Assembly (NCBI RefSeq): GCF_003946395.1
Contig: NZ_RHNZ01000016.1
Location: 1-64,000 of the forward strand
Origin: Levilactobacillus fuyuanensis
Lineage (GTDB): Bacteria > Bacillota > Bacilli > Lactobacillales > Lactobacillaceae
Direction of reading: 5' to 3'
DNA length: 64,000 nt
Under the pieces are notes generated by a model. It did no database searches and was not told the DNA's origin. It worked only from the letters and a program-made list of their open reading frames with translations. The first letter of the stretch is position 1. The number at the start of each line of letters is the position of its first letter. The position numbers were made by a program, and so were the translations under genes. Of the stretch, positions 18,619-56,202 are shown piece after piece.

Positions 18619-18839
18619 AGCAATCGCCTCACTTTTAGAATCTATGATGTCGGAGTGATGGCGCTACTTAACTGGTTGGTAGCGCTATCAGTGACTATGT
18701 AACTAGTATACCGCATTGGTGGGGAAAGCTTTAGGATTTGAGCTTTTTGGTGGGGGATGGTTGGTTCGGAGCACAGGTCGTTAAACATATGTTGGGAATT
18801 TTTAGCCGTTAGGTCTTTGTTGGTTTAGGGCGTTGTTTT

Positions 18840-19049
18840 GATTTTATGTTGGTTTGGGGCTCTCTCTAATTTTATGTAGCCGAAACGTGCTCCAGCAGGC
18901 AGTCAGTTCCGCTTAACCTCAATAAGGAAAAATCTAGATTTTCTGATTTTATGTTGATTTGGATCTCTCTCTAATTTTATATAGCCGAAACGTGCTCCGC
19001 AAGGCAGGTCCCTGCGCTTAACCCCAATAAGGAAAAATCCAGGCCCGGG
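18840..19049. repeat. two-copy direct repeat, period about 105 nt
   Basis: Copy 1 starts at 18840 and copy 2 at 18945, both with GATTTTATGTTGRTTTGG. They share TCTCTCTAATTTTAT, TAGCCGAAACGTGCTCC, CGCTTAACC and AATAAGGAAAAATC. Copy 2 continues into a long hairpin. The segment 18619-18839 upstream holds no gene. Confidence 0.8.
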
Positions 19050-19101
19050 ATTTTTCCCTTATTGACGTTAATGCTCAGGACCTAAGCGCCTTGCTCCGCA
19101 C
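18992..19101 (-). repeat. long-hairpin dispersed repeat, copy at 19.0 kb
   Basis: A 110-nt imperfect hairpin has outer arms GTGCTCCGCAAGGC and GCCTTGCTCCGCAC, inner AGGTCC with GGACCT, and a top stem AATAAGGAAAAATCC with GGATTTTTCCCTTATT. On the minus strand it carries AGGTCCTGAGCATTAACG and GGTTAAGCGCAGGGACCTGC, the same words as the copy at 52088-52177. The family is unknown to me. Confidence 0.8.
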
Positions 19102-22097: not shown

Positions 22098-22286
22098 CGC
22101 CTGCGGCTGTCAGGGATTCCGCCTGCTGTGGGGACCGGTCCAAGCCTGTGAGGCGGTCTTGGACCTCGACTTGAAGCCGTCAAAATTCAGACGTCTCCAA
22201 GCTCGTCCTATGACCTAACCTGACAAAAAACGTCAGCTAAGGTCATCGTCACGGCTGGCTACGTCCCTGACCTCCTCTGGCTAAGC
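22098..22286 (-). repeat. structured repeat element E1 (complete)
   Basis: On the minus strand the element opens GCTTAGCCAGAGGAGG and closes GCCGCAGGCG. It has a closing stem (GTCAGGGA with TCCCTGAC), a TTA hairpin (ATGACC with GGTCAT), a T-loop-like GGCTTCAAGTCGAG, a third helix (GGTCCAAG with CTTGGACC) and the constant GGTCCCCACAGCAGGCGGAAT. It lies just after the 15-nt palindrome GGGTTTTCAAAACCC (22081-22095), which may end the rsuA-like gene. Confidence 0.85.
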
Positions 22287-22568
22287 ATGGTTTCTCGACT
22301 ATCAAATTGTTTTATCACGTTGGTGTTAAGCAGAGATCAGTGCCGCTTCTAACGTGTAATTGAATTCCTTTCTTTTATTTAAATCTTACTTAAACCAGTC
22401 GGCGGCAAGCTCCTAATCGAGTTTGTCGCCGATTTTTTGAATCTTGTTAGAGAAGTCAAATTTGTAATTGTTTCGTTGTAACAGAATTTCAGATTTAACA
22501 TCGCTAGCTCAAGACTGATATCTGATCGTGAAGACTTGTTAGAACTATCTGGACTAAAAGTTAGTGCA

Positions 22569-22753
22569 GCCGGAGGCAGGTAGGATGTAGTCAGCTGTGA
22601 CAGTCATCTTAGCTGGTGATTTTTACCAGGTTAGATGACGGGACGTGTTTGGAAACTCGCATGAACCTCGCGAGGTTTCAAACCGAGGGTAAAGACCGCT
22701 TCTCAGGCTTTACCCGTTCCCCATAGCAGACGGAATCCTGCTAGCCGCAGGCG
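22569..22753 (+). repeat. structured repeat element E2 (complete)
   Basis: It has the same architecture as E1. The closing stem is GGCAGGTAGGAT with ATCCTGCTAGCC (one mismatch), the hairpin GTCATCTTAGCTGGT with ACCAGGTTAGATGAC, the T-loop-like segment GAGGTTTCAAACCGAGG, the third helix GGGTAAAG with CTTTACCC, and the constant motif reads CCCCATAGCAGACGGAAT. The gap 22287-22568 holds no gene; a TTT-rich hairpin with GTCGGCGGCAAGC lies near 22400. Confidence 0.85.
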
Positions 22754-26312: not shown

Positions 26313-26324
26313 GCCGTCTACTTA

Positions 26325-26357
26325 TTACTAATGTAATTTTCGCCGATTTTGTCGCAT
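26325..26357 (+). repeat. 33-nt short repeat, copy 1
   Basis: The segment reads TTACTAATGTAATTTTCGCC then GATTTTGTCGCAT. A near-copy lies at 33998-34030. It contains the small palindrome GCGACAAAATCGGCG-like pairing with its own 3' half. Confidence 0.55.
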
Positions 26358-26501
26358 AATTTTACTGGGCTTATGTATTTCTTAACTCTTTCTTGATTAT
26401 CGGTCTCTATAACCTATGCCGGATGATTTGCAGTGGCCACCGCCGATTAGGGTGAGTTGGTACACGGATACATAGGTCAGTTAAAATAATGCTTACTCAA
26501 A

Positions 26502-33210: not shown

Positions 33211-33249
33211 GTCCAGTGGTGATGGTAGTTATGATGGCGCTGGCGTATC

Positions 33250-33359
33250 GCCTGCGGTTGCCAGAGGGGGACCGGCCCCAAAGCCGAAGTGCAGTCTTTG
33301 ACCTCGTCTTGAAGCCACGAAGCCCATAGCTGGAGCCATCCTGGCCTCCTCCGACTTAC
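33250..33359 (-). repeat. structured repeat element E3 (internal arm missing)
   Basis: On the minus strand this copy opens CGTAAGTCGGAGGAGGCC and closes AACCGCAGGCG. It keeps the T-loop-like GGCTTCAAGACGAG and GGTCCCC but lacks the whole TTA hairpin and the segment just after it. It is about 110 nt instead of 185, and lies inverted to E4. Confidence 0.75.
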
Positions 33360-33583: not shown

Positions 33584-33734
33584 AGTCGGAGGAGGGCAGA
33601 AATGTAGCCTGTTTACAGCACGGGCGATTTTGGAGACTCGTGGTCTTCGAGGCTTCAAATCGAGCGAGAAGACTGGTGGTTTTCCAGCCTGAAGCGTCCC
33701 CACAGCAGGCGGAATCTCTGACAGCCGGAGCGCG
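33584..33734 (+). repeat. structured repeat element E4 (TTA hairpin missing)
   Basis: It opens AGTCGGAGGAGGGCAG and closes GACAGCCGGAGCGCG. It has the T-loop-like GAGGCTTCAAATCGAGC and the constant CGTCCCCACAGCAGGCGGAAT but lacks the TTA hairpin. The full stretch 33159-34411 contains no protein gene. Confidence 0.75.
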
Positions 33735-33903: not shown

Positions 33904-33997
33904 GCTCAAAATTTTGGGTGCCAATTGACTGTATGATAGGCGGGAAGGGGTATGGTGGTGTGTAGGTACGAGCTCGACCATAATTAGCCCTATACTA

Positions 33998-34030
33998 GTA
34001 CTAATGTAATTTTTGGCGATTTAGTCGCAT
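33998..34030 (+). repeat. 33-nt short repeat, copy 2
   Basis: It reads GTACTAATGTAATTTTTGGC then GATTTAGTCGCAT, matching 26325-26357 in 28 or more of 33 positions. The following 34031-34394 shows no convincing gene. Confidence 0.55.
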
Positions 34031-34411
34031 CTTTTGGCAAAATAACACGAGAAATCGTTTTAACTTAGAAAACGTTGTGGCACTTAAACAGATTAATTTG
34101 TCGTCGGAGATACAACTTCACAGGGCTGGTAGTAATTTATATCGCGATATGCTATTAATATTATTGTGGCGTTTAGATCTAAATTGGGTGCGAGTAGCCA
34201 ATGGAATTTACCAACTGCTATGCGATTATCCGGTAAAATGGTAATTGTTGAATACGGTTTCAGAACGGTTATGTTTTGTCGAGGACATCCGTCCCGGAAA
34301 AACCACAAAAATACATAATTTTCACGTGAAAGCGGATACATTTGGAGAACCGCGTCATTGGGATTTCTGAATTATTTTGCTAATCTTATCTTGTAAGGAG
34401 CTGTTTGAGAG

Positions 34412-37540: not shown

Positions 37541-37905
37541 ATTCCACAATTGATGGTTGAGATATGGTAAATGGTTTTGGTGATTCTTGGAATAGTGCAG
37601 TGAAAGCCTTAATTGATGGCATTTAGGCAGATGGGGTTAGTCTTGTTGCCTGGTTGGTGGCCAATATTCAGCCAAGGCTATCATCAAACCAAATGTTGAT
37701 ATGAATACTTAATGTAGTATACAAGCATTAACCCTCCCACCATTACTAAATCAAATGTAAGTGAAAATGATCTAAGCAGTTTAATTTACAGCTGATTGCT
37801 GATGATAGCTTAGATTGAGTATGAAATTTTATTATGAAAAATTGCGGACAGACGGGCTAACTATTTTTGAATGACAACAGAATCTTTGGCGAGAGGTCAG
37901 CGTAA

Positions 37906-38089
37906 GCCGGAGGAGGCCAGAGATGGAGCCAGCTGTGGCGGTGATGGTAGCTGGTGGACTTGCCAGTTACCATCACGGGACGAGTTTGGAGACTCGTGGG
38001 CCATAGCGAGGCTTCAAATCGAGCCGGAAGCCCGTTCTGTGGCTGGAGGCGATCCCCACAGCAGGCGGAATCTCTGGCAGCCGCAGGCG
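37906..38089 (+). repeat. structured repeat element E5 (complete, best preserved)
   Basis: It opens GCCGGAGGAGGCC. The closing stem GCCAGAGAT pairs perfectly with ATCTCTGGC, and the hairpin GTGATGGTAGCTGG with CCAGTTACCATCAC. CGAGTTTGGAGACTCG, the T-loop-like GAGGCTTCAAATCGAGCC, AGCC with GGCT and the constant GATCCCCACAGCAGGCGGAAT follow. Outer GAGAGGT (37891-37897) pairs with ACCTCTC (38096-38102). It sits 130 nt before polA. Confidence 0.88.
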
Positions 38090-38229: not shown

Positions 38230-40893
38230 ATGGCGGACAAACGATTATTATTGATCGACGGCAACAGTGTGACCTTCAAGGCCTTTTACGCGTTATACAC
38301 GTCGTTGGGGCGTTTCACCAACAGTGAAGGGCTGCACACCAACGCCATTTACGGTTTCAACACGATGCTCGAAACCATGTTAAAGAATGTGGATCCGACA
38401 CACGTCTTGGTGGCGTTTGATGCCGGTAAGGTCACGTTCCGGACGAAGATGTACGACAACTACAAGGGCGGTCGGGCCAAGACCGCATCCGAACTTTCCG
38501 AACAATTTCCTTACGTCAAGGAACTCCTGGCGGCCCGGGGCATTCAGACTTACGAGCTCCCGAACTACGAGGCCGATGACATCATCGGCACGTTGGCTAA
38601 ACAGGCGGAAGCCAATGGGTTTACGACGACCATTGTGACCGGTGACCGGGACCTTACACAGCTGGCCAACGACCATACGACGGTTGCCATTTCCAAGAAA
38701 GGGGTCAGCGAGATTGAACGCTACACCCCAGCTTATGTCAAGGAAAAGATGGGTGTGACCCCTGAACAGATCATTGATATCAAGGGGCTCCAAGGCGATA
38801 ACTCTGATAATTATCCTGGTGTGACTGGCGTGGGTCCTAAGCGGGCGGTCGACTTAGTCGGCAAGTACGGCAGCGTCGAGGGTATTTATGAAAACATCGA
38901 TGACATCACCGCTAAGAAGCTCAAGGAGCATCTGGTGGCTGATCACGACCAAGCGCTGTTGGCAAAGAAGCTGGCCACAATTAATCGCGATGCGCCAGTC
39001 GAAAAGAAAGTTGACGACTTGGTTTACGAAGGACCAAACCGCGAAGACTTGATTGCCTTTTACCAACGGATGGATTTCCGGACATTTCTTAACAAGATGG
39101 ACTTTGAAGGCGAGACGCCAACTGCGACACCGGGCCTCAAGGACATCGACTACACGGTATTGACTGCGGAAAACGTGGCGGCTCTGCCAGACTTCTCCGC
39201 TGACGGTTGTGAATTTTACCTGGAAATGCCAGATGAAAATTACCACACGTCTGAATTTGTCGGATTTGCCATCGGTGACGATGACCAGTGGTGGGTCAGT
39301 CGCGATGTCGGCCTCTTACAACAGGCACCGCTGAAAGACATTCTGACGTCCGCTGACGTGGCCAAACAAGTCTTTGACGCCAAGCGGACCTACGTGGGCT
39401 TGAATCGCTTAGGCCTTACGTTAGCTGGTGTCGACTGTGACCTGTTGTTGTGCTCGTACTTACTGAACACTTACGATAACAGTAACGATCTGGGCCGCGT
39501 GGCCATGGAACACGGGTACGATCAGGTCGCGACCGATGAGGACATCTACGGCAAGGGTGCCAAGCGCGCCATTCCTGACGATGATGAGGTCTTCTTTAAG
39601 CATTTAGCACGGAAGGCGCGCGCCATTGAACAGTTACGGCCAAAGCTCTTTGAAGGCTTGGATGAAAACGAACAAACACAGCTCTACCGTGAGATTGAAC
39701 TCCCAATGAGCTTTGTCCTCGCCCGGATGGAAATTGCCGGAATTACCGTGGATGCAAGTGAGCTGGAAGCCATGGGCAGTAAGTTTACTGAACAATTGGC
39801 TGAAATTGAACAGACGATTTACCAGGAAGCTGGCGAAGAATTTAACATTGGTTCTCCCAAGCAACTGGGACACATCCTCTTTGAAAAGATGGGCTTGCCC
39901 GTTATCAAAAAGACCAAGACCGGCTATTCCACGGCGGTCGGCGTGCTGGAAAAGCTGGCGGCCGATGCGCCAATTGCAGAGAATATTTTGCGCTACCGGA
40001 AGATTGCCAAGATTCAGTCGACCTATGTGGAAGGCCTCTTGAAGGTCATCCATCCCGAGGATCAGAAGGTGCACACTCGCTACCTGCAGACGTTGACACA
40101 GACCGGTCGACTGTCTTCGGTCGATCCTAACTTGCAAAATATCCCCGTTCGAAGCGAAGAGGGGCGTGCAATTCGTAAAGCCTTTGTTCCGCGGCACGAG
40201 GGTTGGCAGATCTTCTCGTCTGACTACTCACAGATTGAACTGCGGGTGCTTGCCCACATGAGCCACGATTCCAACATGCAGGAGGCCTTCAAGGAAGGCC
40301 AAGACATTCACGCGGCCACAGCTCGGCGGATCTTCAAGATGGCACCGGATGCCGAAGTTACGCCGAACATTCGCCGGCAGGCCAAGGCCGTTAACTTTGG
40401 GATCGTCTATGGCATTAGTGACTTTGGCTTGTCTCAAAACATTGGTATTTCTCGTAAGCAGGCGAAGAACTTTATCGATACCTACTTTGAAGAATATCCG
40501 GGCGTCAAGGCCTACACGGAGCGGATGGTGCAACAAGCTCATGAGTTGGGCTACGTTGAGACGATTGCCCACCGTCGCCGGTATTTGCCAGACATCAACT
40601 CACGCAACTTCAACCAGCGGTCCTTTGCCGAACGGACGGCGATGAACACGCCGATCCAAGGGAGTGCCGCCGATATTATTAAGATTGCAATGATTCGCAT
40701 GGAAGATGCCATCAAGGATATGCAAGCTACAATGCTACTGCAGGTTCACGATGAGCTGATCTTCGAGGCACCCGCCGAGGAGATCGCCACGCTAGCTAAA
40801 TTAGTGCCAAGCGTCATGGACTCCGCCATCGACCTCGAGATTCCGTTGAAGGTTGAAAGCCACTACGGCCCAACTTGGTACAACGCCAAGTAG
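38230..40893 (+). CDS. polA: DNA polymerase I
   Basis: This 887-residue protein has a 5' nuclease domain (LLLIDGNSVTFKAFYAL, NYEADDIIGT, TGDRDLTQL), an exonuclease-like domain without the usual acidic exonuclease motifs, and a complete polymerase domain (SSDYSQIELRVLAH, RRQAKAVNFGIVYG and QVHDELIFE). It fills gaps and removes RNA primers. GGAGGAGCG before ATG 38230. It begins the polA-mutM-coaE-nrdR-dnaB-dnaI cluster. Confidence 0.95.
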   Translation: MADKRLLLIDGNSVTFKAFYALYTSLGRFTNSEGLHTNAIYGFNTMLETMLKNVDPTHVLVAFDAGKVTFRTKMYDNYKGGRAKTASELSEQFPYVKELLAARGIQTYELPNYEADDIIGTLAKQAEANGFTTTIVTGDRDLTQLANDHTTVAISKKGVSEIERYTPAYVKEKMGVTPEQIIDIKGLQGDNSDNYPGVTGVGPKRAVDLVGKYGSVEGIYENIDDITAKKLKEHLVADHDQALLAKKLATINRDAPVEKKVDDLVYEGPNREDLIAFYQRMDFRTFLNKMDFEGETPTATPGLKDIDYTVLTAENVAALPDFSADGCEFYLEMPDENYHTSEFVGFAIGDDDQWWVSRDVGLLQQAPLKDILTSADVAKQVFDAKRTYVGLNRLGLTLAGVDCDLLLCSYLLNTYDNSNDLGRVAMEHGYDQVATDEDIYGKGAKRAIPDDDEVFFKHLARKARAIEQLRPKLFEGLDENEQTQLYREIELPMSFVLARMEIAGITVDASELEAMGSKFTEQLAEIEQTIYQEAGEEFNIGSPKQLGHILFEKMGLPVIKKTKTGYSTAVGVLEKLAADAPIAENILRYRKIAKIQSTYVEGLLKVIHPEDQKVHTRYLQTLTQTGRLSSVDPNLQNIPVRSEEGRAIRKAFVPRHEGWQIFSSDYSQIELRVLAHMSHDSNMQEAFKEGQDIHAATARRIFKMAPDAEVTPNIRRQAKAVNFGIVYGISDFGLSQNIGISRKQAKNFIDTYFEEYPGVKAYTERMVQQAHELGYVETIAHRRRYLPDINSRNFNQRSFAERTAMNTPIQGSAADIIKIAMIRMEDAIKDMQATMLLQVHDELIFEAPAEEIATLAKLVPSVMDSAIDLEIPLKVESHYGPTWYNAK

Positions 40894-42403: not shown

Positions 42404-42551
42404 GTGGTGGAATGGCTCATGAAGCAATTATTTAAATCGTATTGTTTCTGTGGGAATCATGACGATGGCTGTTCGAGTGAGCAGTTGTCGCATGGCACAG
42501 GCCTAGCCAGTTGAAAATTGTGAATAATCGTTTGGTTTAAACACGGTGTTA

Positions 42552-42734
42552 GCCGCAGGGATGGTGAAAATGAACCAAGCCGTGGGAATTCTCTTATCGG
42601 CGGGTTTTGCCGGTTAGAGAATTGGTGCCTTTAAGACGCGTTTTTAGCGGCTTGAAGGCAAGTCTAAAGACGGCTCTTTGGCTTTAGGCGTCCGCCCACA
42701 GCGTCACGGTTTATTTTCACCGTCCCGGAGGCGG
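42552..42734 (+). repeat. structured repeat element E6 (complete)
   Basis: It opens GCCGCAGGGATGGTGAAAAT and closes TTTATTTTCACCGTCCCGG. The hairpin is AATTCTCTTATCGGC with GCCGGTTAGAGAATT, the third helix GTCTAAAG with CTTTAGGC, and the constant motif CGTCCGCCCACAGCG. It lies inside the coaE-nrdR gap, in the direction of the operon. Confidence 0.87.
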
Positions 42735-42808
42735 CCGAAGGCGACAATTTTAAACCAACGTAAAACATTAGATAATCAAGTAACCAATGAAAAAATGAGG
42801 TGACCAAA

Positions 42809-45716: not shown

Positions 45717-45845
45717 TTCTAACTGTTTTGCTAAGGTATTACTTAAATTTATTGGTGAGTTACCAGAATTACGTATGACTTATCATGATGACTAATTTGT
45801 CAGGCGGAGGGATTAAAACAATGGTTAGCGACTTGGCAAGTATGA

Positions 45846-46028
45846 GCCGCAGGGATGGTGAAAATGGACTCAGCCGTGGGAATTCTCTTACCGGTGAGGT
45901 TGGCCGGTTAGAGAATTGGTGCCTTTAAGACGTGTTCTTAGTGGCTTAAAAGCACGGCTAAAGACCGCTCTATGGCTTTAGCCGTCCGCCCACAGCGTCA
46001 CAGTCCATTTTCACCATCCCGGAGGCGG
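45846..46028 (+). repeat. structured repeat element E7 (complete)
   Basis: It closely resembles E6 (GATGGTGAAAATGGA with TCCATTTTCACCATC; AATTCTCTTACCGG with CCGGTTAGAGAATT; GGCTAAAG with CTTTAGCC). Sites that differ from E6 preserve pairing. It lies between dnaI and thrS. Confidence 0.87.
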
Positions 46029-46106: not shown

Positions 46107-46124
46107 GTCAATGAAACCACACGA

Positions 46125-46361
46125 GCTATGACGAAAGACATGGTGCTCGCGGCGACGTTCACAGGAAGAGTTGGCCTAGCTTGGAAGCCGACTTAGCGCC
46201 CGCCAGCATTACCGCTTTCCTAAGCTGTCGGAAGGAAATTTCTGGCCGGTCCGTTCCGTTATCGACGATTAGAGTTCACGGGATCAGTCTCGTGAAAAAT
46301 ATCGGGTGGAACCACGTTAATGACGTCCCCAGTGCCTTCTTTGGCACTGGGGATTTTTTTC
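46125..46361 (+). promoter_or_regulatory. T-box riboswitch of thrS
   Basis: The T-box core reads GGGTGGAACCACG at 46304-46316 (a common variant) and the terminator TCCCCAGTGCC with GGCACTGGGGA ends in T7 near 46360. ACC in CATTACCGC at about 46208-46216 is a Thr codon in a plausible specifier loop. Uncharged tRNA-Thr would permit thrS expression. Confidence 0.92.
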
Positions 46362-50037: not shown

Positions 50038-50104
50038 GATAATCGACGTTTAATGGCGTTGGCTTGTGTGGTAAATGATCTTTGCTGCTCGCTATATTAG
50101 CGTA

Positions 50105-50281
50105 GCCGGAGGAGGGCAGGCGTGGAGCACCCTGTGTCGGTGTCCTTAGTCGGGGATACTTCCCGGCTTAGGACACGGGACGACCTTTGAGACGAGGGCT
50201 TTCGGCTCAAAGGCGAGCTGGAAGACTGACAAGTCTGCAAGCGGTCCCCACAGGGAGCGGAATGCTTGCCAGCCGCAGGCG
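50105..50281 (+). repeat. structured repeat element E8 (complete)
   Basis: It opens GCCGGAGGAGGGCAGG. The closing stem is GGCAGGCGT with ATGCTTGCC, the hairpin GTGTCCTTAGTCGGG with CCCGGCTTAGGACAC. The T-loop-like region reads GGCTCAAAGGCGAG, the third helix AGACT with AGTCT, and the constant motif is GGTCCCCACAGGGAGCGGAAT. Located 56 nt before the infC promoter. Confidence 0.86.
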
Positions 50282-50371: not shown

Positions 50372-50544
50372 GTTGAGAAATTAAGCAGAGGCTTCCGCTT
50401 CTCGCCCTGTGGCTTACGCTGCTGGGCTGGATATGCACGTTAATCCGATTATTTTAGTTGGATTTCTTGCGGGAGCCGTTTGATTATCATCAAAGGTTCC
50501 CGCATTTTTTGTGAGTGAGATTCTGCAGTTCTCGAGATTATTTT
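50372..50544 (+). promoter_or_regulatory. infC leader with attenuator, L20-leader type
   Basis: The leader of about 170 nt contains several hairpins and a terminator (TGCGGGAGCC...GGTTCCCGCA then T6 ending near 50510) before infC. In related Firmicutes this leader is bound by ribosomal protein L20 to control infC-rpmI-rplT. That control here is inferred from position and structure. Confidence 0.7.
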
Positions 50545-51823: not shown

Positions 51824-51924
51824 GCAAGCCGCTTAGATTCTGAGCATTAGGGAAATAAGGGGCTTCTGTTCGGCCTCGCCGGACAGGAGTCGCTTATTTT
51901 GCTAAGCGGAAGAATCTGGCTTGC
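51824..51924 (+). repeat. long-hairpin dispersed repeat, copy at 51.8 kb
   Basis: Outer arms GCAAGCC and GGCTTGC, then AGATTCT with AGAATCT, AATAAG with CTTATT, and an inner TCGGC with GCCGA-like arm. It has CTGAGCATTA and GCTAAGCG, as in the other copies. It is followed by a tail CTCGTTTCAGAGGC. Confidence 0.8.
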
Positions 51925-52004
51925 GTAGCTCGTTTCAGAGGCCGCATATTTCCGAGCATCTTGGCGAGAGTGAGTTTAGTTCTCTAAACCAGAGTAATCA
52001 GTAA

Positions 52005-52070
52005 CAGCCTTGCCGGACAGGAGGACTTAGCTTTCTAAGCGGAAGAACCTGCCTTGCGGAACTCGTTTCA
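52005..52070 (+). repeat. long-hairpin repeat, partial copy
   Basis: This truncated copy keeps the 3' half only: GCCTTGCCGGACAGGAG, CTAAGCGGAAGAACCTGCC and ACTCGTTTCAG. Confidence 0.65.
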
Positions 52071-52087
52071 GATCAGAGTGTGAAGAA

Positions 52088-52177
52088 GGGCGGTAGGTCC
52101 TGAGCATTAACGTAGATAAGTGCCAGCTTGGCGGAGCCGAGTCGGTGCTTATCTGGGTTAAGCGCAGGGACCTGCCC
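52088..52177 (+). repeat. long-hairpin dispersed repeat, copy at 52.1 kb
   Basis: GGGCGGTAGGTCC pairs with GGACCTGCCC, AGATAAGTGCC with GGTGCTTATCT, and AGCTTGGC with GCCGAGT. It shares AGGTCCTGAGCATTAACG and GGTTAAGCGCAGGGACCTGC with the copy at 18992-19101. The 51811-52560 stretch holds no convincing gene. Confidence 0.82.
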
Positions 52178-52564
52178 GACTGAACACGTTTCCGAGGCTG
52201 CAAGTTTCCGGATATAAAGGCGAGAGAAAGTCCAATGGTCTAAACTTGTCTGGACATCATAGACAGGCACTGGATAGGAATCACTCGGCTTTCCAAGCAA
52301 GACTGGCCACTAAAGGCCAGTCTTGCTCTCTCAGCATACTTGCCAACCAACCGCACCAAAAACTACCAACGACCGTAACTAATCCTACTGACGACAACCC
52401 CGTACCACGGAATGTCGTCAGCAACGACCAGTACTCGAAATAATCAATCAGTCGTTGTGTCATTTTCACGGCGCCACACGGGCGTTCGTAAAATTAGCAA
52501 AATTTCCGTTAAAAACGTTTCGCATTCTCAGTCGTTACGAGTAGCAAATTTTGCGAAAATTGCG

Positions 52565-55859: not shown

Positions 55860-55937
55860 GCATGTTGGAAATGATTGTTTGTATTTTGGACGATTGTTTA
55901 CGTTTAGATAGTGGTTTGAGAATACACGCTCACGTAA

Positions 55938-56116
55938 GCCGTGAGGGTGGTGAAAATAAACTCAGCCGCAGGAATTCTCTTAGCGGTGTTAGCCGCTTAG
56001 AGAATTGGTAGCTTTGAAACTTGGTTTTGAGGTTCAAAGCCAAGTCCGGAGACCGCACTTTGGCTCGGGACGTCCGCCTGCCGCGTTCCGGTTTATTTTC
56101 ACCACCTGGTAAGGCG
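55938..56116 (+). repeat. structured repeat element E9 (complete)
   Basis: It opens GCCGTGAGGGTGGTGAAAAT and closes TTTATTTTCACCACC. The hairpin is AATTCTCTTAGCGG with CCGCTTAGAGAATT, the third helix GTCCGGAG with CTCGGGAC (one mismatch), and CGTCCGCCTGCCGCG replaces the usual CCCACAG. It splits the yqeK-rsfS junction, which in Bacillus is contiguous. Confidence 0.85.
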
Positions 56117-56202
56117 CTGCTAACAACAACGTTGCCTGATTAAAAATTAGATTTAAAATACGAAATAGAATCGATGCACCAAAATTCGAGAGGAGCACTT
56201 GC

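Follow-up and report, generated by a model that had tools for sequence, protein, structure and literature searches.

Paired, folded intergenic cores in Levilactobacillus fuyuanensis, probable copies from a family of non-autonomous mobile elements in Lactobacillaceae

Copies of the element in the window

The window considered here is a 64,000-nucleotide stretch of the Levilactobacillus fuyuanensis genome (contig NZ_RHNZ01000016.1, positions 1 to 64,000). Nine places in it, at the positions given in an earlier note made from the letters alone, carry members of one family with a common ancestry, as that note had claimed, and the full family extends well beyond these nine. The probable mobility of the elements, their number of about 200, the back-to-back pairing and the occurrence in further genera went unnoticed in that note. 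Seven of the copies are intact and two are decayed, and they divide into two homologous subtypes, A and B, which are represented by the models R1 and R2, respectively. The copy named in the earlier note is a type-A core at 37905..38089 on the plus strand (R1, 188.8 bits), followed on its 3' side, at 38230, by a gene that we take from the look of its sequence to be polA-like. The type-A cores at 22098..22282 (minus strand, 162.6 bits) and 22568..22753 (plus strand, 163.4 bits) are the left and right halves of a divergent pair with a 285-nt spacer. The decayed copies, also of type A, form a second divergent pair with a 227-nt spacer: 33249..33356 on the minus strand on the left (108 nt; 24.9 bits, and alignment) and 33584..33734 on the plus strand on the right (151 nt; 70.4 bits), the latter with most of hairpin 1 gone. 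With R1, the intact type-A copies of the window score 161-189 bits, against 24.9 and 70.4 for this pair. A length of about 180 nt with all helices, which had been ascribed to all nine copies, was found in seven of them but not in the decayed two, which are without all or most of hairpin 1.

The remaining cores are all on the plus strand. A type-A core at 50104..50281 (161.2 bits) lies 5' of a sub-threshold L20 leader, and the type-B core at 45845..46027 (R2, 192.3 bits) lies 5' of a sub-threshold T-box. The type-B core at 42551..42733 (190.8 bits) is followed by what appears by eye to be a leftover type-A tail, at about 42734-42760. Lastly, the type-B core at 55937..56115 (165.5 bits) sits within an insertion of about 316 nt (55860..56175, plus strand) that was delimited from blast blocks and the sequences of congeners. 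The T-box match (46119-46333) scores 51.3 bits against a cut-off of 93 and lies directly 3' of the 45845 element; the L20 leader match (50377-50517) scores 51.6 bits against a cut-off of 58.7 and is placed likewise with respect to the 50104 element. Both are possibly real, divergent leaders.

Other repeats are also found in the window. A second family, with units of about 100 nt and by eye no resemblance to the cores, occurs in tandem at 18836 and 18941 (region 18836-19084); 52036-52192 matches it in inverted orientation, and further direct copies stand at 51893 and 52026, 84-93% alike (region 51893-52192). A short intergenic repeat around TACTAATGTAATTTTTGGCGATTTAGTCGC is present at 26323-26362 and 33996-34035, with 85% agreement between the two, and recurs in spacers of the loci L235 (7166) and L236 (15965), which agree with each other at 91%.

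A folded core in two subtypes

The core is about 185 nt long, and its predicted fold is one of nested three-way junctions. RNAalifold gives the same architecture for an alignment of 33 type-A copies (A2) and one of 28 type-B copies (A3): a long closing stem leads to an inner stem (GCYGTG/CACAGC in type A), which carries hairpin 1 and a short stem (GGGAC/GTCCC in type A), and the short stem in turn opens into hairpins 2 and 3. Of the claim that one order of motifs runs through all nine copies, the family itself stands, but the letters GGCTTCAAATCGAG and CGGAAT belong to type A; type B has GGCTTGAAGGCAAG-like letters instead, together with a distinct closing stem (GGTGAAAAT/ATTTTCACC). A 'constant CTTA/GTTAG interruption' had also been described, and this feature is real, although it is better given as a symmetric UUA/UUA step inside hairpin 1. 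The subtypes can be cross-detected, since each model matches the other subtype at about 37-93 bits.

Several controls bear on the fold. Four copies were folded singly, with z-scores of -7.3, -8.0, -7.0 and -5.8, and for each of them none of 200 shuffles folded as well. In A2, 96.0% of 2,055 cells are paired, with two-sided changes in 42 of 63 pairs (176 cells), and in A3 the corresponding values are 96.6% of 1,889 cells and 40 of 68 pairs (215 cells). Structures slid along the alignments have 35-51% paired cells, against the 96-97% observed, and none of 500 shuffles was as high. The covarying helices that the earlier note had read by eye are borne out, with compensatory changes in nearly every helix and all 500 shuffles below the observed value in each of five measures. 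For a comparison of covariation with phylogenetic expectation, substitutions were simulated along a FastTree tree to give 20 alignments, a home-made procedure that approximates R-scape but is not R-scape itself; at E<0.05, 14 of 63 type-A pairs and 23 of 68 type-B pairs exceed this null. The significant type-A pairs are in the closing stem, the inner stem and hairpins 1 and 2; hairpin 3 and the short stem have none. In type B the significant pairs are spread over the closing stem and hairpins 1 to 3. One passing type-A pair, 42:79, is paired in just 18 of 33 copies. In each alignment one column pair outside the proposed structure (25:176 in A, 34:155 in B) rises above the null maximum, and both lie beside proposed pairs.

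Some copies hold open frames of 80-113 aa, and chance resemblance or a conserved coding sequence, with no selection on structure, might be suggested on that ground. We give this reading next to no credence, as it is contradicted by loop lengths that vary by single bases and by covariation beyond both the shuffles and the tree-simulated null.

The kinds of change within pairs can reveal which strand folds. Over all structure pairs, G-U and U-G pairs number 109 (A) and 95 (B), and A-C and C-A pairs 28 (A) and 25 (B), the raw G-U totals being inflated by a few columns in which G-U is the usual pair. Because of these columns a parsimony count is the better measure, and on the strand read by the earlier note it gives 105 changes from a Watson-Crick pair to G-U versus 28 to A-C. 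This excess identifies that strand as the folding strand, as RNA or as single-stranded DNA. Terminal branches show 154 double compensations, 91 changes to G-U, 24 to A-C and 30 that break the pair otherwise, so that, of 299 changes away from Watson-Crick pairs, 245 preserved pairing, which points to selection continuing close to the tips. The tips are copies, however, and part of the signal may therefore stem from selection that acted on source copies prior to their movement. Together, covariation and the excess of G-U over A-C make it well supported that the elements are under selection as a folded single strand, with RNA and single-stranded DNA alike compatible, as had been proposed. The fold recurs in 13 copies drawn from three other genera (ten genomes). 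There, 45 of 62 predicted pairs show a change on both sides that keeps the pairing, and the closing stem varies more than the inner core letters. The earlier note did not recognise the class; no Rfam family reaches its gathering score in the window, and none appears at E up to 5 over 18000-57000.

Abundance and host range

A whole-genome model search brings the family to about 200 places in the source genome (2.72 Mb). R1 has at least 148 matches at E<=0.01 among the best 150 of 866 candidates, in 147 places, since one is matched on either strand; the lowest score is near 30 bits. R2 has 136 matches at E<=1e-6, with 60 places at 109 bits or more. By eye the two sets do not overlap, which gives at least 207 places (147 for R1 and 60 for R2). 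With blast, the 37905 and 45845 copies find at least 40 and 42 matches in the same genome, queries included, all at 72-82% identity but for one pair at 88%. Over the window and a further 400 kb, taken as 20 stretches of 20 kb, 81 cores were counted, and none overlaps a gene by more than 20 nt, the genes being those predicted by a simple home-made codon-usage caller.

Beyond the source genome, R1 is positive in 102 of 397 Lactobacillaceae genomes (source included) from 10 of 40 genera at E<=0.001, and a sample of the order gives 18 positive genomes of 395 at E<=1e-5, 17 of them in Lactobacillaceae; both searches scored the best 6 candidates per genome. A pattern scan of named genomes has Levilactobacillus species and one uncultured Lactobacillus assembly among at least 115 stretches listed. 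Two weak matches (44.6 and 41.8 bits) occur in G656, a genome of another family of the order, at C9:52522 and C6:9210, where transfer or chance is possible. In another genus, three weak core matches stand in tandem at G038:C6:104402-105077, unlike the divergent pairs described below. Blastn against 72,556 plasmids gave no match for either subtype, and against 50,697 phages none for type A; these empty searches are odd for an active mobile element.

Back-to-back pairs and flanking arms

Cores are often found as divergent pairs with their 5' ends inward. In the source genome 22 of 24 core neighbours less than 1 kb apart have this layout, the other two being one tandem and one convergent case, and one of the 22 pairs spans a gene. 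On the chromosome of the congener G182 all 22 close neighbours are divergent, with spacers of 66-105 nt in 20 of the 22, and in 20 aligned loci of this genome the usual pair is an A core with a B core. The 29 loci taken from other genomes contain 13 core neighbours, of which 10 are divergent (gaps of 35-776 nt) and the remaining three tandem, one tandem case resting on a weak partial match. Many copies stand alone. No conserved spacer between paired cores was found in the source genome, just two short matches. Wide pairs were considered as possible carriers of a transposase, and none was found inside the two widest examined: the 776-nt gap in L200 has small frames only, and the 836-nt gap in L235 holds a gene that, from the look of its sequence, is presumably ruvA-like.

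The sequences just outside the cores also pair. In the source genome, predicted flank-flank pairing is at or above the 95th percentile of re-dealt flanks for 49 of 80 copies and at or above the 99th for 39 of 80, with an average of 21.0 predicted pairs versus 10.1 after re-dealing (a home-made control). By the same kind of home-made control, the effect is weak in the 29 loci of other genomes, where five reach the 95th percentile and three the 99th. Copy-specific inverted flanks can be seen, for instance, at L222:285-306/536-558 and L229:1417-1446/1647-1677. By eye, part of the arms is a common end motif of about GGTTAAAA...TTTTAACC, and much is unique to each copy. The 3' arm enters a predicted gene by at least 8 nt in 14 of the 49 strong cases, the 5' arm in none. 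The arms may have arisen through template switching that extended the palindrome, or through selection favouring a longer stem; insertion into pre-existing hairpins is possible for some copies and unlikely where the 3' arm is coding.

Gain, loss and swapping at orthologous sites

Cores have been gained and lost between species, as is seen from their presence and absence at orthologous sites. At the 55937 site the flanks meet within 2-3 nt in the congener G292, where the surrounding blocks are 90-95% identical, and in G015, G159, G182 and G405 the spacer is short and holds no core. The 45845 core is missing from the spacers of the same four genomes; G292 has it with a 5' half that differs. At the 50104 site the G015 spacer has no core. 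A type-A core occupies the 42551 site in G292, and the source genome has a type-B core there, followed by an A-type tail, which indicates that cores were swapped or nested there. At L229:15274-15465(-), a type-A core is apparently nested in the closing stem of a type-B element, judging by eye from the flank letters.

The 37905 core lies 5' of the polA-like gene and also 5' of a promoter-like TTGGTAAAATA that is conserved among congeners; by eye, its position is between a terminator and the polA promoter. Upstream of polA an R1 core is present in 6 of 30 congener loci, a count that rests on the type-A model and may miss type-B copies. In several of the other loci the terminator is close to the promoter-like TTGGTAAAATA, and other loci have different filler sequence. 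In the polA spacer of G292 (L242), a frame that presumably resembles the zinc-finger end of TnpB is found where the source genome has the element.

Promoters and gene context

Two window copies lie just 5' of T-box and L20-leader matches and a third lies 5' of polA, an arrangement that would suit ordinary leaders regulating the adjacent genes in cis, or 3'UTR elements of such genes. However, at polA the core lies 5' of the promoter-like site and an R1 core is found in just the six of 30 congener loci, and orientation to genes is even, with a sense to antisense ratio of 28:30 in tandem gene contexts and hence no bias. The riboswitch or leader reading was rejected on these grounds, and we regard a leader or 3'UTR role as very improbable. 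Copies also occur in convergent (14) and divergent (7) spacers, of which the sample has 43 and 50, respectively, of at least 60 nt.

A further possibility is that the cores are small RNAs used by the host, or pieces processed from read-through transcripts, which have a common partner and were spread by mobile carriers. Sequence constraint in loops and junctions and the retention of pairing in 245 of 299 terminal-branch changes can be cited for it. Against it stand the variable presence at orthologous sites, the lack of orientation bias and the promoter scores: a sigma-70-like promoter scoring at least 10 was found upstream of 1 of 80 cores, versus 23 of 126 gene upstream regions, and the region upstream of cores does no better than the antisense (3 of 80) and downstream (4 of 81) controls. 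Sigma-70 promoters of their own, as a mark of small RNA genes, were rejected. We judge this reading quite unlikely.

Transposon ends and a probable carrier insertion sequence

Several units in G182 have IS4-type ends. They share the termini CTRAAGGTTGAAAG ... CTTTCAACCTTYAG, 556-639 bp apart, and of the six units with both ends four have exact 7-8-bp duplications (L294 CTACATAA, L295 TTAGCAA, L302 TCTTCAA, L303 TTGATAA); the duplication is inexact in L293 and absent in L306. An exact 8-bp duplication, TCAAACAT, is also found at L304. The 22-base end pattern, a terminal inverted repeat (TIR), was searched with up to two mismatches and is present in 15 of 35 congeners, including 39 times in G182, with zero matches for the reversed control; the source genome, and with it the window copies, has 0 matches. 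A core lies within 400 nt of 22 of the 39 TIRs in G182, against a mean of 0.5 for random placement (a home-made control), and 19 of these 22 are faced by the 3' end of the core, most often at 55 nt. The other 17 have no detected core nearby.

A complete insertion sequence (IS) with the same ends is found in the congener G365 (L339, 1417-2975). It is 1,559 bp long, is bounded by an 8-bp duplication, CTGATTAA, and has a 489-codon frame with a Y-2-R-3-E-6-K motif, of which a 285-residue part matches NCBIfam transpos_IS4_4 at E 7.1e-87, above cut-off. The space left between its ends and the frame is too small for a core. The transposase is present in 10 of 35 congeners at E<=1e-30, in some as fragments, and has 0 matches at that threshold in the source genome and in G182. 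Table 1 of PMC2266710 gives the ISPepr1 subgroup of the IS4 family as 1500-1600 bp long, with ends YT-AA-YTT---A and 7-8-bp duplications. The G365 IS agrees in length, duplication, motif and ends, which fit 7 of the 8 listed letters (one is G for Y), and this agreement describes the carrier and not the cores, which are not part of the IS.

What the fold may do

The nine stretches are probably structured core copies from a family of non-autonomous mobile elements found in Lactobacillaceae, whose units would have moved in trans and whose fold would act in cis. Because cores are gained and lost, and because the ends and duplications in G182 match a complete IS4-family IS, the element is a non-autonomous, MITE-like one, with an unusually elaborate folded cargo. 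Its units would have been moved in trans by IS4-type transposases. Since the source genome has neither the G182-type repeat nor the G365-type transposase, the carriers would have changed over time, and we infer the mobilisation of the nine copies from orthologous sites and from relatives.

Action of the fold in cis is the weakest step and is offered tentatively, as a possibility that we find somewhat doubtful. In a two-core unit, transcription from either side would copy one core in its sense, folding orientation just before leaving the unit. The pair could thereby serve as a two-way RNA insulator that stops or trims read-through, which would make insertion between genes tolerable. Support for the insulator is circumstantial, namely the lack of a promoter signal, the lack of sense/antisense bias and the position, by eye, between terminator and polA promoter. 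No U-tract was noticed directly 3' of the cores, and the insulator does not explain the many lone copies.

Alternatively, the fold may be needed for movement: a transposase or a host factor would recognise it, in RNA or in single-stranded DNA, and the IS4-type ends would be no more than the latest carrier. The conservation of inner core letters, beyond pairing, in copies from three other genera would fit this, as would a back-to-back layout that persists across different spacers and genera, the core swap at the 42551 site and the nesting, seen by eye, at L229:15274. However, DDE transposases are held to require only the element ends, and a core would not fit between the ends and the frame of the complete IS4-type IS. 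We consider a role in movement unlikely. A related idea, which we hold to be rather unlikely, is that the paired structured module is itself a selfish unit of RNA or single-stranded DNA that swaps transposon ends, with the fold, not a protein, as its conserved functional part. Such a fold might recruit a transposase or replication factor, or shape the insertion site; in the source genome the flanks are predicted to pair uniquely around many cores, sometimes by way of the end of a neighbouring gene.

On the preferred reading of a MITE-like element with folded cargo, the question raised is why a mobile element without genes keeps opposed folded modules while the transposon ends differ between species. 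The family is a structured nucleic acid with about 200 copies in one genome that is found in ten genera by model search, yet it has no Rfam entry. It offers a dense natural set of covarying structures, and part of the turnover of spacers among Levilactobacillus species can be attributed to it.

Comparison with known systems

No description of this element family was found in the open-licence literature, where absence is not proof, and nothing was found there on EFAR repeats. BIMEs consist of two inverted structured units with a spacer, located between genes, and the paired cores resemble them in this; REP hairpins are about 20-40 nt long, in contrast to cores of about 185 nt, a comparison made by description. 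Like MITEs, the elements are short, carry no transposase gene or other gene, have many intergenic copies and leave empty sites, and in G182 they have target-site duplications and TIRs in common with the complete IS of G365. Unlike MITEs in general, their cargo is usually a pair of cores of about 185 nt with a covarying fold, one model matches ten genera, and the source genome is without those TIRs. Bcr1 of the Bacillus cereus group is also an intergenic, multi-copy repeat of similar length (167 nt, 31 copies) with a conserved predicted stem-loop (PMC2267715), and L. johnsonii is the sole lactobacillus named in the passages of that paper drawn on here. The present family can be set apart from Bcr1, by description, through its back-to-back paired cores and nested three-way junctions.
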